Part shown: positions 64 to 7,904 of the stretch, piece by piece
Layout of the letters: each line of letters opens with the position of its first letter
Position numbering within the stretch: position 1 is the stretch's first letter
From: Phycisphaerae bacterium
GTDB taxonomy: Bacteria; Planctomycetota; Phycisphaerae; UBA1845; UTPLA1
Length of the DNA: 7,904 bases
NCBI GenBank assembly: GCA_016935885.1
Contig: JAFGQA010000111.1
Location: 1 to 7,904 of the forward strand
Reading direction: 5' to 3'
The notes under the pieces: model-generated
Seen by the model: the letters and a program-made list of their open reading frames with translations, nothing else
Database searches by the model: none
What the model was told of the DNA's origin: nothing
Program-made: the position numbers and the translations under genes

Positions 64-88
64 CCGTAGGGTGTGCACCGCACACCAA
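64..88 (+). repeat. REP1 copy, left (3' side of RAYT)
   Basis: A GTAG tetranucleotide at 66-69 is followed by a hairpin with arms GGTGTGC (70-76) and GCACACC (80-86) and the three-base loop ACC. The 25-bp unit is the exact reverse complement of 712-736. It ends only 3 bp from the TAG stop codon (92-94) of the transposase gene, so the hairpin would form in the 3' end of that transcript. Confidence 0.85.
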
Positions 89-91
89 TCC

Positions 92-667
92 CTATTCGCC
101 GAACGCCAAACCGTCACACAGGCTGCCCGGAGCCGTCGGCATGTCGCCACCGCAGACACAAAGCCATTCCGACCGGTAGTAGCCGTCCTCCACCCACCGC
201 CTGAAACTCGAATACGGCCATTGATGCGGACACCGAGCCAAACCGTGCTTGACGGGATTGTGGTGGATGTAATTGACGTGGTGTATGAAATCCTCTTCGC
301 TGCGGATCTTATGTTCCCAGAAACGTCTCTGCCAGACGCCTCGTTCACGGTGCCGCACCCGGGTGCGTGACACCACCAGGTCCCGGCCGCCCGCCGACAG
401 CCACCGCTTGGTGAATCGGCTCTTGATAACGCCCCAACGTTTCGAATAGTCGTCGTCACCCTCGGGCAACGTCCATACGCAATGCCAGTGTTCGGACAAA
501 AGCACCGTCGCCACCAGTTCAAAGGGCCACTGCCGTTGCACATCCAGTACAACCTCGCGCAAGCACCGCCGCGCGAGGCCGGACGAAAACAGCGGACGTC
601 GCCGGTGTGTCACAACCGTGAAGAAGAACATCCCGCCCGGCGCGTAACGACGAAGGTAATTCGGCAT
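92..667 (-). CDS. REP-associated tyrosine transposase (RAYT, TnpA_REP / IS200-like HUH enzyme)
   Basis: A 191-residue single-strand DNA transposase of the Y1/HUH superfamily, expected to nick and join DNA at REP hairpins. The N-terminus (MPNYLRRYAPGG, then FFFTVVTHRRRPLF) is the usual opening of the family. The metal-binding HUH motif is H60-W61-H62 within SEHWHCVWTLPEGD. The catalytic tyrosine is most likely Y133 in VNYIHHNPVKHGL. The W-Q-R-x-F-W-E-H block at about 112-119 and WPYSSF at 150-155 are also typical. All key residues are present and the length is normal, so it looks intact. I chose the ATG at 667 because GGAGG (676-680) lies 8 bases upstream and the protein then starts at the conserved block; an in-frame ATG farther upstream (727) would begin inside the REP1 copy. 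The gene may be co-transcribed from the zinc-ribbon gene, which ends 90 bp upstream on the same strand. The specific partner (REP1) is inferred from position. Confidence 0.92.
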   Translation of the reverse strand: MPNYLRRYAPGGMFFFTVVTHRRRPLFSSGLARRCLREVVLDVQRQWPFELVATVLLSEHWHCVWTLPEGDDDYSKRWGVIKSRFTKRWLSAGGRDLVVSRTRVRHRERGVWQRRFWEHKIRSEEDFIHHVNYIHHNPVKHGLARCPHQWPYSSFRRWVEDGYYRSEWLCVCGGDMPTAPGSLCDGLAFGE

Positions 668-711
668 CGCGTCACCCTCCGTTCCCATACCTCTTTGCGC
701 AGATTCAAACG

Positions 712-736
712 TTGGTGTGCGGTGCACACCCTACGG
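712..736 (-). repeat. REP1 copy, right (5' side of RAYT)
   Basis: Exact reverse complement of 64-88. Read on the minus strand it gives GTAG, then the 7-bp hairpin with an ACC loop, in the same direction as the transposase gene, whose start codon is 44 bp downstream. It lies between the stop of the zinc-ribbon gene (758-760) and the RAYT ribosome binding site (676-680), so the hairpin would be in any read-through mRNA linking the two genes. Confidence 0.85.
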
Positions 737-2546: not shown

Positions 2547-2565
2547 ACAGGGTGTGCACCACACA
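2547..2565 (+). repeat. Degenerate solo REP1 copy
   Basis: The first ten hairpin bases, GGTGTGCACC (2551-2560), match the REP1 copies at the transposase exactly. The GC that should follow is missing and the right arm is shifted. A shorter hairpin remains: GTGTG (2552-2556), loop CAC, CACAC (2560-2564). The tetranucleotide before it is ACAG and not GTAG. It lies between the zinc-ribbon gene and the 3' end of the PEP-CTERM-like gene, a typical extragenic REP position. It is probably an old copy that no longer has a full recognition site. Confidence 0.6.
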
Positions 2566-2580
2566 GCGGATTCCTGCGGT

Positions 2581-3635: not shown

Positions 3636-3672
3636 TTCCAGAGGTCCTATTGGACCGATAGGGCCTCTGGAA
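3636..3672 (+). promoter_or_regulatory. 15-bp hairpin upstream of the sigma-54 activator gene
   Basis: Arms 3636-3650 and 3658-3672 pair over 15 positions around a 7-base loop. One position (3645/3663) is a U-G wobble on the plus strand and a mismatch on the minus strand. TTTT follows at 3674-3677, so a weak plus-strand terminator or attenuator is possible. The right-arm heptamer CCTCTGG (3664-3670) can pair instead with a second CCAGAGG at 3685-3691, giving two mutually exclusive stems. A smaller dyad, GGTCC (3643-3647)/GGACC (3652-3656), is nested in it. Whether it acts as RNA or as a DNA operator cannot be decided here. Confidence 0.5.
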
Positions 3673-3695
3673 ATTTTGCGCTTGCCAGAGGGGCG

Positions 3696-3734
3696 ACAAA
3701 ATTGTACCTTCAGCGTTTAGTTCTACAATTTTGT
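3696..3734 (+). promoter_or_regulatory. Inverted repeat overlapping a candidate promoter of the activator gene
   Basis: ACAAAATTGTA (3696-3706) and TACAATTTTGT (3724-3734) are perfect 11-bp inverted repeats separated by 17 bases. Each arm also contains a small ACAA/TTGT dyad. The right arm holds TACAAT (3724-3729), a good -10 hexamer. A poor -35 (TTGTAC, 3702-3707) lies 16 bases upstream in the left arm. Transcription would start near 3735, 28 bases before the ATG at 3763. The symmetry suggests an operator occluding this promoter, for autoregulation or another regulator; an RNA stem is the alternative. Confidence 0.45.
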
Positions 3735-3762
3735 TGGCCCTTGGGGTCCGGGATCGGAGTGT

Positions 3763-5300: not shown

Positions 5301-5326
5301 GTCACGGGCCAAAGGTCACGGGCCAC
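5301..5326. repeat. Short direct repeat between convergent genes
   Basis: GTCACGGGCCA occurs at 5301-5311 and again at 5316-5326, four bases apart. It covers the extra C-terminal codons that the prepilin pseudogene gained by loss of its stop codon. It may be a small slippage duplication. I find no terminator hairpin in this narrow convergent gap. Confidence 0.4.
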
Positions 5327-5848
5327 GACCAGTAGTCCTCGAACTTGCGCAGCCATGGTGGCCAGTCTTGGGGCAAAACGCCGCCCGCCTCGGTCCAGGG
5401 CCCAGCCGTGTCGCATTCGTCATGCCAGGGCAGAGTCCAGAGTTCCTTGAGGCCCACCGCGCGGATCGACCACTCGAGAAACAGCACGTTGACACTGACC
5501 TGGTGACGCATGATGCAGGCCGGCTTCAAGTGATCGCGGCCGCCGCGATAGACCCAGCAGCCGCCGTCGTATTCCGGCGGCTGGTCGAAGTGCGCCGGCG
5601 AGATCTTCTCGGAGACGGAATCGAAGACGACCGGATAGCGGGCCAGACCGGTGAAACCGTCGTACGACCGGCCGCTGAGGCAGCGATTGAATCCATAACT
5701 GTCGAACGGCGGCCGACAGTCCGTATCCGAGGTGGCCAGGTCCGACCAGTCCGTGATCACCGGCGGTCGCGGCGCCGCTGTTGTCGAACACATAAGCAGA
5801 GAAGGCCAAAATGGAAATGGCCGCGAGCAATTCGATCAGACCAGACGC
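5302..5848 (-). pseudogene. Decayed prepilin-like gene, third of the tandem array
   Basis: The first mature helix survives in one frame (GLIELLAAISILAFSAYVF, from about 5846 down) but lacks the normal AFT before LIELL and has no proper leader. The remainder is in another frame, from about 5790 to the stop at 5302. It keeps SYGFNRCLSGRSYDGFTGLARYPVVFDS, a typical middle segment, and the shared tail VGLKELWTLPW, DTAGPWTEAGGVLPQDWP and KFEDY. Compared with the two intact paralogs roughly 60-70 residues between helix and middle are missing. The H-x9-DG motif has become H-x9-EW. The stop after DY is now TGG, adding WSWPVTFGP. Four independent lesions argue for a pseudogene and not a programmed frameshift. 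A REP1 and a REP2 copy lie directly upstream. Confidence 0.8.
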
Positions 5849-5869
5849 GGTATGCGGTGCACACCCGAC
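5849..5869 (-). repeat. Solo REP1 copy next to the prepilin pseudogene
   Basis: Read on the minus strand it matches the 21-base GTAG-hairpin core of the RAYT-flanking copies at 19 positions. One difference is in the tetranucleotide (GTCG for GTAG). The other is in the right arm, which reads GCATACC and so leaves one weakened pair. It lies about 5 kb from the transposase, between the REP2 copy and the remnant of the prepilin helix, and replaces the place where a start codon and leader should be. Confidence 0.78.
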
Positions 5870-5870
5870 G

Positions 5871-5914
5871 GGGCCACCATCACCGAGCCCTGCGGGCTTG
5901 AGGCTGCCACCCGC
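5871..5914 (-). repeat. REP2 palindrome, copy 3
   Basis: This matches the tandem copies at 7795-7837 and 7853-7894, sharing CCATC, a variable GC stem around TGC, then GCTGCCACCCG. Its stem is AGCCC/GGGCT, whereas copy 1 has AAGGCC/GGCCTT, so the stem bases changed on both sides while pairing was kept. It lies between the stop of the middle prepilin gene (5930) and the REP1 copy at 5849-5869. Confidence 0.78.
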
Positions 5915-5929
5915 AGCCACGCCAAGGCG

Positions 5930-7783: not shown

Positions 7784-7837
7784 ATTCCTGACCCGTGGAA
7801 CCATCCCCAAGGCCTGCGGCCTTGAGGCTGCCACCCG
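7780..7837 (-). repeat. REP2 tandem unit 1 (core 7795-7837)
   Basis: The core has AAGGCC (7809-7814), loop TGC and GGCCTT (7818-7823), with an outer GTGG/CCAC pair (7795-7798, 7831-7834). The 15 bases before the core match those of the adjacent unit at 10 positions, so the duplicated unit is about 58 bp and not just the palindrome. It lies immediately upstream of the first prepilin gene. Confidence 0.75.
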
Positions 7838-7894
7838 CCTTGTCTCTAACCAGTGGAACCATCGCCAAGCCTTGCGGCTTGACGCTGCCACCCG
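7838..7894 (-). repeat. REP2 tandem unit 2 (core 7853-7894)
   Basis: The second unit abuts the first. Its stem is CAAGCC/GGCTTG around TTGC, so it differs from unit 1 on both sides of the stem yet still pairs. It keeps the flanking GTGGAACCATC and GCTGCCACCCG blocks. The final ten bases of the window (7895-7904) carry nothing I can identify. Confidence 0.75.
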
Positions 7895-7904
7895 ATGCAA
7901 ATCC

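Follow-up and report, generated by a model that had tools for sequence, protein, structure and literature searches.

A probable GTAG-type REPtron in a Phycisphaerae bacterium: a RAYT gene between two cognate REPs

Introduction

REPs occur across bacteria and archaea (PMC12306157), and the classes of REPtron and RAYT have been set out in PMC6006769 and PMC8266576. GTAG REPs were reported in Planctomycetes in 2013 (Di Nocera et al., PMC3733652), with R. baltica among the species that have several REP families, together with many tyrosine transposase genes that have flanking repeats. The stems of GTAG families are mostly 6-9 bp in length, and their dimers lie mostly 20-100 bp apart (PMC3733652). 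A first-pass annotation of the DNA studied here had taken RAYT-REP pairing to be known mainly from proteobacteria, which the 2013 report contradicts. Our search of the literature found no title on REPs of Sedimentisphaerales, although absence is not thereby proven.

The other point of reference is the TnpAREP protein of E. coli (RayT, PDB 4er8; group 2 / subclass 2.2). The residues of its GTAG contact region are W94, Q95, E100, H101 and R104 (PMC6006769), together with G160-E161 (PMC8266576). Group 2 REPs are described as bulged and group 3 REPs as short perfect palindromes, with critical loop bases for the group 3 enzymes (PMC8266576). PMC6006769 gives bulged or imperfect REPs for the majority of subclass 2.2, and not for all of it.

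We have analysed a stretch of 7,904 nucleotides, termed the window, that contains a RAYT gene. Positions 64-736 very probably constitute a REPtron, in which a single-domain HUH/Y1 RAYT is placed between two cognate REPs with GTAG outward, and would act by a mechanism like that of E. coli TnpAREP. The first-pass annotation had proposed a complete REPtron, and the RAYT match, the flanking GTAG pair and a REP type that follows the RAYT clade all support this. The REPtron is a real, well-formed and ordinary example of a known system, not a planctomycete novelty. Our account of the RAYT-REP pairing, the dispersal of the REPs, their intergenic position (in one relative), their paired geometry, the site termed A and the history of the locus is drawn from comparison of sequences.

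Results

Two GTAG hairpins flank the RAYT gene

Positions 1-1200 contain a single inverted pair, with 25-nt arms that are 100% complementary and separated by 623 nt (Table 1). Read on the GTAG strand, either arm is CC-GTAG-GGTGTGC-ACC-GCACACC-AA. It folds into a 7-bp stem with a 3-nt ACC loop (-7.3 kcal/mol, z -2.8), and GTAG lies at the outer foot of both arms, pointing outward at either end of the pair. From GTAG to the end of the stem the REP is 21 nt long and a perfect palindrome, with 11 nt in foot plus stem. The 3' arm starts 3 nt beyond the RAYT stop codon. The first-pass annotation had given this pair with its coordinates and distances, the GTAG, the hairpin with its loop and the proximity of the 3' copy to the stop codon, and all of these hold. 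The RAYT gene is thus flanked by GTAG-tagged hairpins, as in a GTAG-REP REPtron. A TIRtron (TIRYT), whose long terminal inverted repeats are unrelated to GTAG REPs, does not fit, the arms here being GTAG hairpins.

Table 1. Coordinates of the RAYT gene and of the REP copies in the window
Feature	Position	Strand	Description
3' REP	64..88	+	Downstream of the RAYT stop, inverted with respect to the gene; GTAG 66-69, stem 70-76/80-86, loop 77-79
RAYT (TnpAREP) gene	92..667	-	191 aa from the most likely start, ATG 667; stop 92-94; H60-W-H62 and Y133-IHH-NP
5' REP	712..736	-	Lies 45 nt ahead of the ATG; GTAG 734-731; 25-nt identity with the 3' REP
Decayed REP-like copy	2550..2567	+	Without GTAG and with a damaged 3' arm; lies upstream of a zinc-ribbon/DUF6263 gene
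Decayed REP	5849..5871	-	GTCG for GTAG, one stem wobble; beside a truncated pseudopilin frame

When up to three mismatches are allowed, the 18-nt core is present in four copies in the 7,904-nt window against 0.01 expected, and none of 200 shuffles had at least four. The two arms and the core copies are beyond chance. Comparison with Rfam gave nothing at gathering scores, and a plasmid search with positions 1-1200 as query matched nothing. The decayed REP sits just before the truncated pseudopilin (5302-5920, minus strand), in which a prepilin-like N-terminus (LIELLAAISILA) is out of frame with the conserved C-terminal part.

The RAYT protein

The gene product matches NF047646 REP_Tyr_transpos with E=2.9e-53 and 179.7 bits, where the family cut-off is 80. 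A Pfam search of the protein returned no family at E 0.001. PDB 4er8 is the best PDB match both by sequence (E=3.1e-38) and by fold of the predicted model (mean pLDDT 83), and the identity with E. coli TnpAREP is 46%. Both the HUH motif and the Y---NP catalytic motif of RAYT / TnpAREP are present. The W at the middle of the HUH motif is absent from the residues listed in PMC6006769 (L, V, I, F, Y, M); HWH is frequent among the close relatives. The IS200/IS605 transposases IS608 and ISDra2 share the HUH/Y1 fold (fold matches with E 6e-6 to 7e-4), but are ~10-18% identical in those matches and belong to autonomous elements with subterminal hairpins.

An alternative ORF of 211 aa begins at an in-frame GTG at 727, inside the 5' REP. 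We prefer the ATG at 667 because 191 aa is the length of most close relatives. Four RAYT records (P0012, P0016, P0021 and P0031) have longer N-termini, e.g. VCTAHQF and KWCAVHTL, that resemble a translated 5' REP; judging by these residues they have probably been annotated from too far upstream, as with the 211-aa ORF here.

A close relative of the RAYT (P0006, 71%) comes from a MAG named Sedimentisphaerales bacterium. The neighbouring sigma-54 regulator has relatives of 86% in MAGs of the same name (P0129 and P0136; 8000 candidates scored). On this basis the contig very probably belongs to a planctomycete of Sedimentisphaerales type. Just upstream of that regulator gene (3763) are two inverted repeats, at 3636-3672 and 3689-3741, with 18-nt arms (89% complementary). 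The eight closest RAYTs are at loci L001-L008, in genomes G001-G008. Two of these, L004 and L007, have broken frames, in L007 by an early stop.

REP type follows the RAYT across loci

We confirmed 409 relatives of the RAYT in genome contigs and kept the best 80, giving 81 loci with the window. Within 200 nt of each RAYT we looked for perfect-stem hairpins of the GTAG or GTGG type, a procedure to which imperfect REPs are invisible. A hairpin was found at 55 of the 81 loci, on both sides at 36, and as a matched GTAG-out pair at 32. The other 26 loci have no perfect-stem hairpin within 200 nt, and their REPs may be imperfect. Among the 77 loci with enough sequence, 30 have a matched GTAG-out pair against 0 of 662 displaced windows, and 51 have any hairpin against 33 of the 662, where the displaced windows were shifted by 1.5-3.5 kb, several per locus, and are hence non-independent.

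The commonest design, GTAG followed by a 7-bp stem and 3-nt loop, was seen at 27 loci, including some in Syntrophales and Deltaproteobacteria MAGs (L013, L014, L020 and L023). The suggestion in the first-pass annotation of a much shorter REP peculiar to planctomycetes is therefore not supported, given that these four loci have the identical design and that stems of 6-9 bp are usual for GTAG families (PMC3733652).

A tree was made of the RAYTs of 53 loci with GTAG hairpins, after dropping 28 of the 81 (26 with no hairpin and two with GTGG). The stem type requires 24 changes on this tree, whereas 500 shuffles averaged 36.4 and never fell below 32. The clade of the window has nine rows and support of 95; the stem is GGTGTGC in eight of them and GGTGGGC in the ninth (L007). 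Beyond this clade, a GGTGTGC start was seen on the 53-locus tree only in L032, within a longer stem. These comparisons support the view that REP stem type tracks RAYT clade across genomes.

REP copies in the genomes of relatives

Exact copies of the 21-mer GTAGGGTGTGCNNNGCACACC, with the loop left free, number 21, 44, 20, 11, 5, 43, 7 and 40 in G001-G008 respectively. The 21-mer is dispersed in these relatives; the 7.9-kb window has two extra copies, both decayed. No copies were found in any of the eight genomes G009-G016, the RAYTs of which have other stems, and a reversed-pattern control gave none in all 16 genomes (G001-G016). A CCGC/GCGG stem was found in two of the 16, G009 (16 copies) and G013 (20 copies), both with a RAYT carrying that stem. 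The RAYT-linked REP of G012 has the same stem but a 4-nt loop, and a match was not expected there. The GTGGGC stem is more widespread, occurring in 11 of the 16 genomes with up to 251 copies in G010. The REP flanking the RAYT of G010 has a different stem, and therefore REP families also exist apart from the RAYTs examined.

We extended the count to 161 genomes of the order of G002. The GTAGGGTGTGCNNNGCACACC pattern is present in 46 and a RAYT-like match at E 0.001 in 93. Grouped by best RAYT score, at least three REP copies were found in 11/11 genomes at 230 bits or above, 0/5 at 200-230 bits, 3/26 at 120-200 bits and 17/119 with less or none. The contrast of 11/11 genomes with 20/150 others gives Fisher p=2.5e-9, uncorrected for kinship and with the 230-bit cut chosen after the scores were known. 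The first-pass annotation would have been refuted by a core equally common in relatives that lack the RAYT, and the counts do not show this, though there are exceptions: 13 genomes have at least five copies but no RAYT scoring 230 bits or more, which argues against a strict link between REP and RAYT. All five such genomes that were searched (G017, G018, G050, G057 and G088) have an NF047646 gene above the family cut-off; a sixth, G020, has weaker NF047646 matches only. Other RAYTs, loss of the RAYT and gaps in draft genomes may each partly account for REPs that have no close RAYT.

Intergenic placement and REPINs

In 20 stretches around REPs of G002, 43 of 54 exact copies are intergenic, compared with 19% of random positions (p=1.2e-21, although the copies are non-independent). 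Copies with GTGTGC or GTGGGC arms were counted, and genes were called by a rough codon-usage method trained on the long ORFs of the same stretches. An earlier test using raw ORFs gave 9/84 (p=0.17) and was uninformative; the ORFs spanned 87-99% of the DNA.

The loci examined contain 39 distinct close pairs of REPs, of which 26 are GTAG-out, nine tandem and four GTAG-in. REPs in these relatives are often in GTAG-out pairs, and in G002 they are mostly intergenic. The GTAG-out pairs, or REPINs, span 53-87 bp. Eleven of the 26 are heterotypic, with GTGTGC in one arm and GTGGGC in the other (in G002, G004, G001 and others); G004 has five such sites, where the starts lie 32-33 nt apart. The two REPs pair with each other in the fold of 18 of 19 GTAG-out pairs whose spacer is 16 nt or longer, seven having been dropped. 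A palindromic spacer between paired REPs is only slightly commoner than in shuffles (0.42 against 0.34), and was left out as evidence.

At site A there is a REPIN in G001, G002 and G020, and none in G017 and G018, where the flanks can be aligned on both sides. As aligned, this site records one whole REPIN that was either gained or lost. Site C has a pair in G001 and G002 and none in G017, G018 and G020, but was left out as evidence because the left flank aligns poorly. At ~4583-5175 of L002 three RAYT-adjacent REPs recur with an exact period of 285 bp (139406, 139691 and 139976 of contig C139 of G002). This is local tandem amplification of the REP with its flanking DNA.

History of the RAYT locus

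L001 and L002 (G001 and G002) have the RAYT at one shared place, and a downstream neighbourhood is common to L006 and L008. The RAYT region of G002 was searched for in four relatives, and the place was read in three (G017, G018 and G020) plus G001. G018 has a relic that keeps the 5' REP minus two bases, the opening codons, a short internal fragment and the whole of the 3' REP, while all other RAYT sequence is deleted; this genome retains 22 exact REPs. G017 and G020 have no match to RAYT sequence at the orthologous place. Weak matches to the region were found in G019. From this pattern the RAYT seems to be mainly inherited and sometimes relocated, decaying in place while the REPs persist.

The DNA homology that the window shares with L001 runs exactly as far as the outer edge of the 3' REP, and with L002 it runs three nt past that edge. 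No further DNA match beyond the REPs was found with either, neighbouring genes included. In both L001 and L002 the two flanking REPs have identical stems and differing loops.

The first-pass annotation had read the perfect identity of the arms as recent acquisition or selection for recognition. The latter fits, the identity being consistent with a constrained stem. Recent acquisition is not supported, given the identical stems with differing loops in L001 and L002, the shared place of the RAYT in the two and the decayed copy in G018.

Recognition residues and REP type

The contacts W94, Q95, E100, H101, R104 and G160-E161 of E. coli TnpAREP correspond to W112, Q113, E118, H119, R122 and G190-E191 in the window protein. 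All listed contact residues are therefore matched, including those that mark group 2 (Q95, E100, R104 and the C-terminal G160-E161). L001 (FAE) and L002 (FVE) lack the C-terminal G. The E-type motif was matched in 68 of 78 relatives; the other ten fall outside the motif, and none has D within it. The window protein differs from that of E. coli in having ~16 extra residues before the WQ motif. The REPs differ too, those of E. coli being 29-37 nt with a required bulge (PMC8266576), whereas that of the window is 21 nt with a perfect 7-bp stem and is not the bulged imperfect palindrome of group 2.

In this it resembles the short perfect-palindrome REPs of group 3 / subclass 2.5 (Stenotrophomonas, Marinomonas Mb; PMC8266576), and the length of foot plus stem is inside the 10-13 nt range of subclass 2.5 (PMC6006769). 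PMC6006769 and PMC8266576 give those enzymes D in place of E100 and no C-terminal G-E, whereas the window protein has E118 and the G-E. It is mildly interesting that group 2 GTAG-contact residues here go together with a short perfect palindrome of the group 3 kind.

Loop bases were counted in G001-G005, G007 and G008, with G006 left out. At position 1, 91 of the 101 copies of G001-G005 have A, whereas 39 of the 40 copies of G008 have T; positions 2 and 3 are variable. The RAYT-flanking REPs agree, with A in L001-L005 and T in L008. G007 is a misfit, where all seven GTGTGC copies have A whereas the RAYT-linked REP is GTGGGC with a TGT loop. The pattern at loop base 1 resembles the critical loop bases of group 3 enzymes. 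It is a correlation only, and weaker as evidence because the copies are possibly related by descent and thus non-independent. We suggest, tentatively and with more doubt than conviction, that a group-2-type RAYT with the E. coli GTAG contacts may use a bulge-less 21-nt REP by reading loop base 1 and the central stem pairs. If so, this clade would break with the two-way division of REP recognition that has been published.

Discussion

The locus shares with the GTAG-REP REPtrons of PMC3733652 a flanked RAYT, short perfect hairpins tagged with GTAG and short loops and, judging by its relatives, dimers with GTAG outside and a mostly intergenic location. It differs in a stem and loop of its own (GGTGTGC-ACC), which may or may not be among the 24 published consensus sequences, and in a host that is very probably of Sedimentisphaerales type.

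By analogy with E. coli TnpAREP, the RAYT would bind the folded single-stranded REP on its GTAG strand. GTAG would act as a guide, with Tyr133 cutting next to the hairpin and the strand then being rejoined. Cutting and rejoining would spread REPs into intergenic sites, often as GTAG-out REPINs of 53-87 bp.

Positions 64-736 could alternatively be an autonomous insertion sequence, moving as one unit whose terminal inverted repeats are the two REPs. In support of this, a GTAG-out pair encloses the RAYT much as it does the spacer of a REPIN, and homology with L001 and L002 ends at or near the outer edge of the 3' REP, with neighbours that do not match. G002 also has a second, partial close RAYT adjoining REPs (residues 1-80, 61% identity, contig C80). 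We nevertheless think this improbable, since the gene is at one place in G001 and G002 with its relic there in G018, and since the order-wide search found one full-length close copy in most close-clade genomes and not several that are nearly identical.

The position of the 3' arm, and of the REPs that follow the stop closely in L001 and L002 too, might also suit simple RNA hairpins, acting as terminator or mRNA stabiliser, for which the link to a RAYT substrate would be incidental. Yet GTAG-out pairs bracket RAYTs of many phyla and no displaced window, relatives carry this sequence scattered elsewhere in their genomes and the stem type follows the RAYT tree, making this explanation very unlikely. 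A chance inverted repeat has the shortness of the arms in its favor and nothing else; with four core copies where 0.01 are expected, and the same layout in relatives, it is scarcely credible. A REPtron with its cognate REPs is the interpretation we strongly prefer.

The locus brings in an order of planctomycetes that allows REP, RAYT and REPIN to be traced together, with the RAYT intact, broken and absent at one orthologous place. This makes it easier to test the persistence of REPs after the death of the RAYT, and how a RAYT of the E. coli type recognises a hairpin lacking the bulge on which E. coli TnpAREP depends.

The window contains a further palindromic repeat, GTGGCAGC-TCAAG...TTGG-GATGG, at 5876-5914, 7800-7838 and 7857-7895 (read on the minus strand). 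Two of the three copies terminate in CCAC, which recalls the GTGG REPs with a 'double foot' described in PMC6006769. Among the loci examined, L180 (G086) has three copies around a RAYT-like gene of another kind, and L183 (G019) has a single copy beside a further such gene. As judged from its sequence and neighbours, this repeat is probably a second REP family with a RAYT clade of its own.
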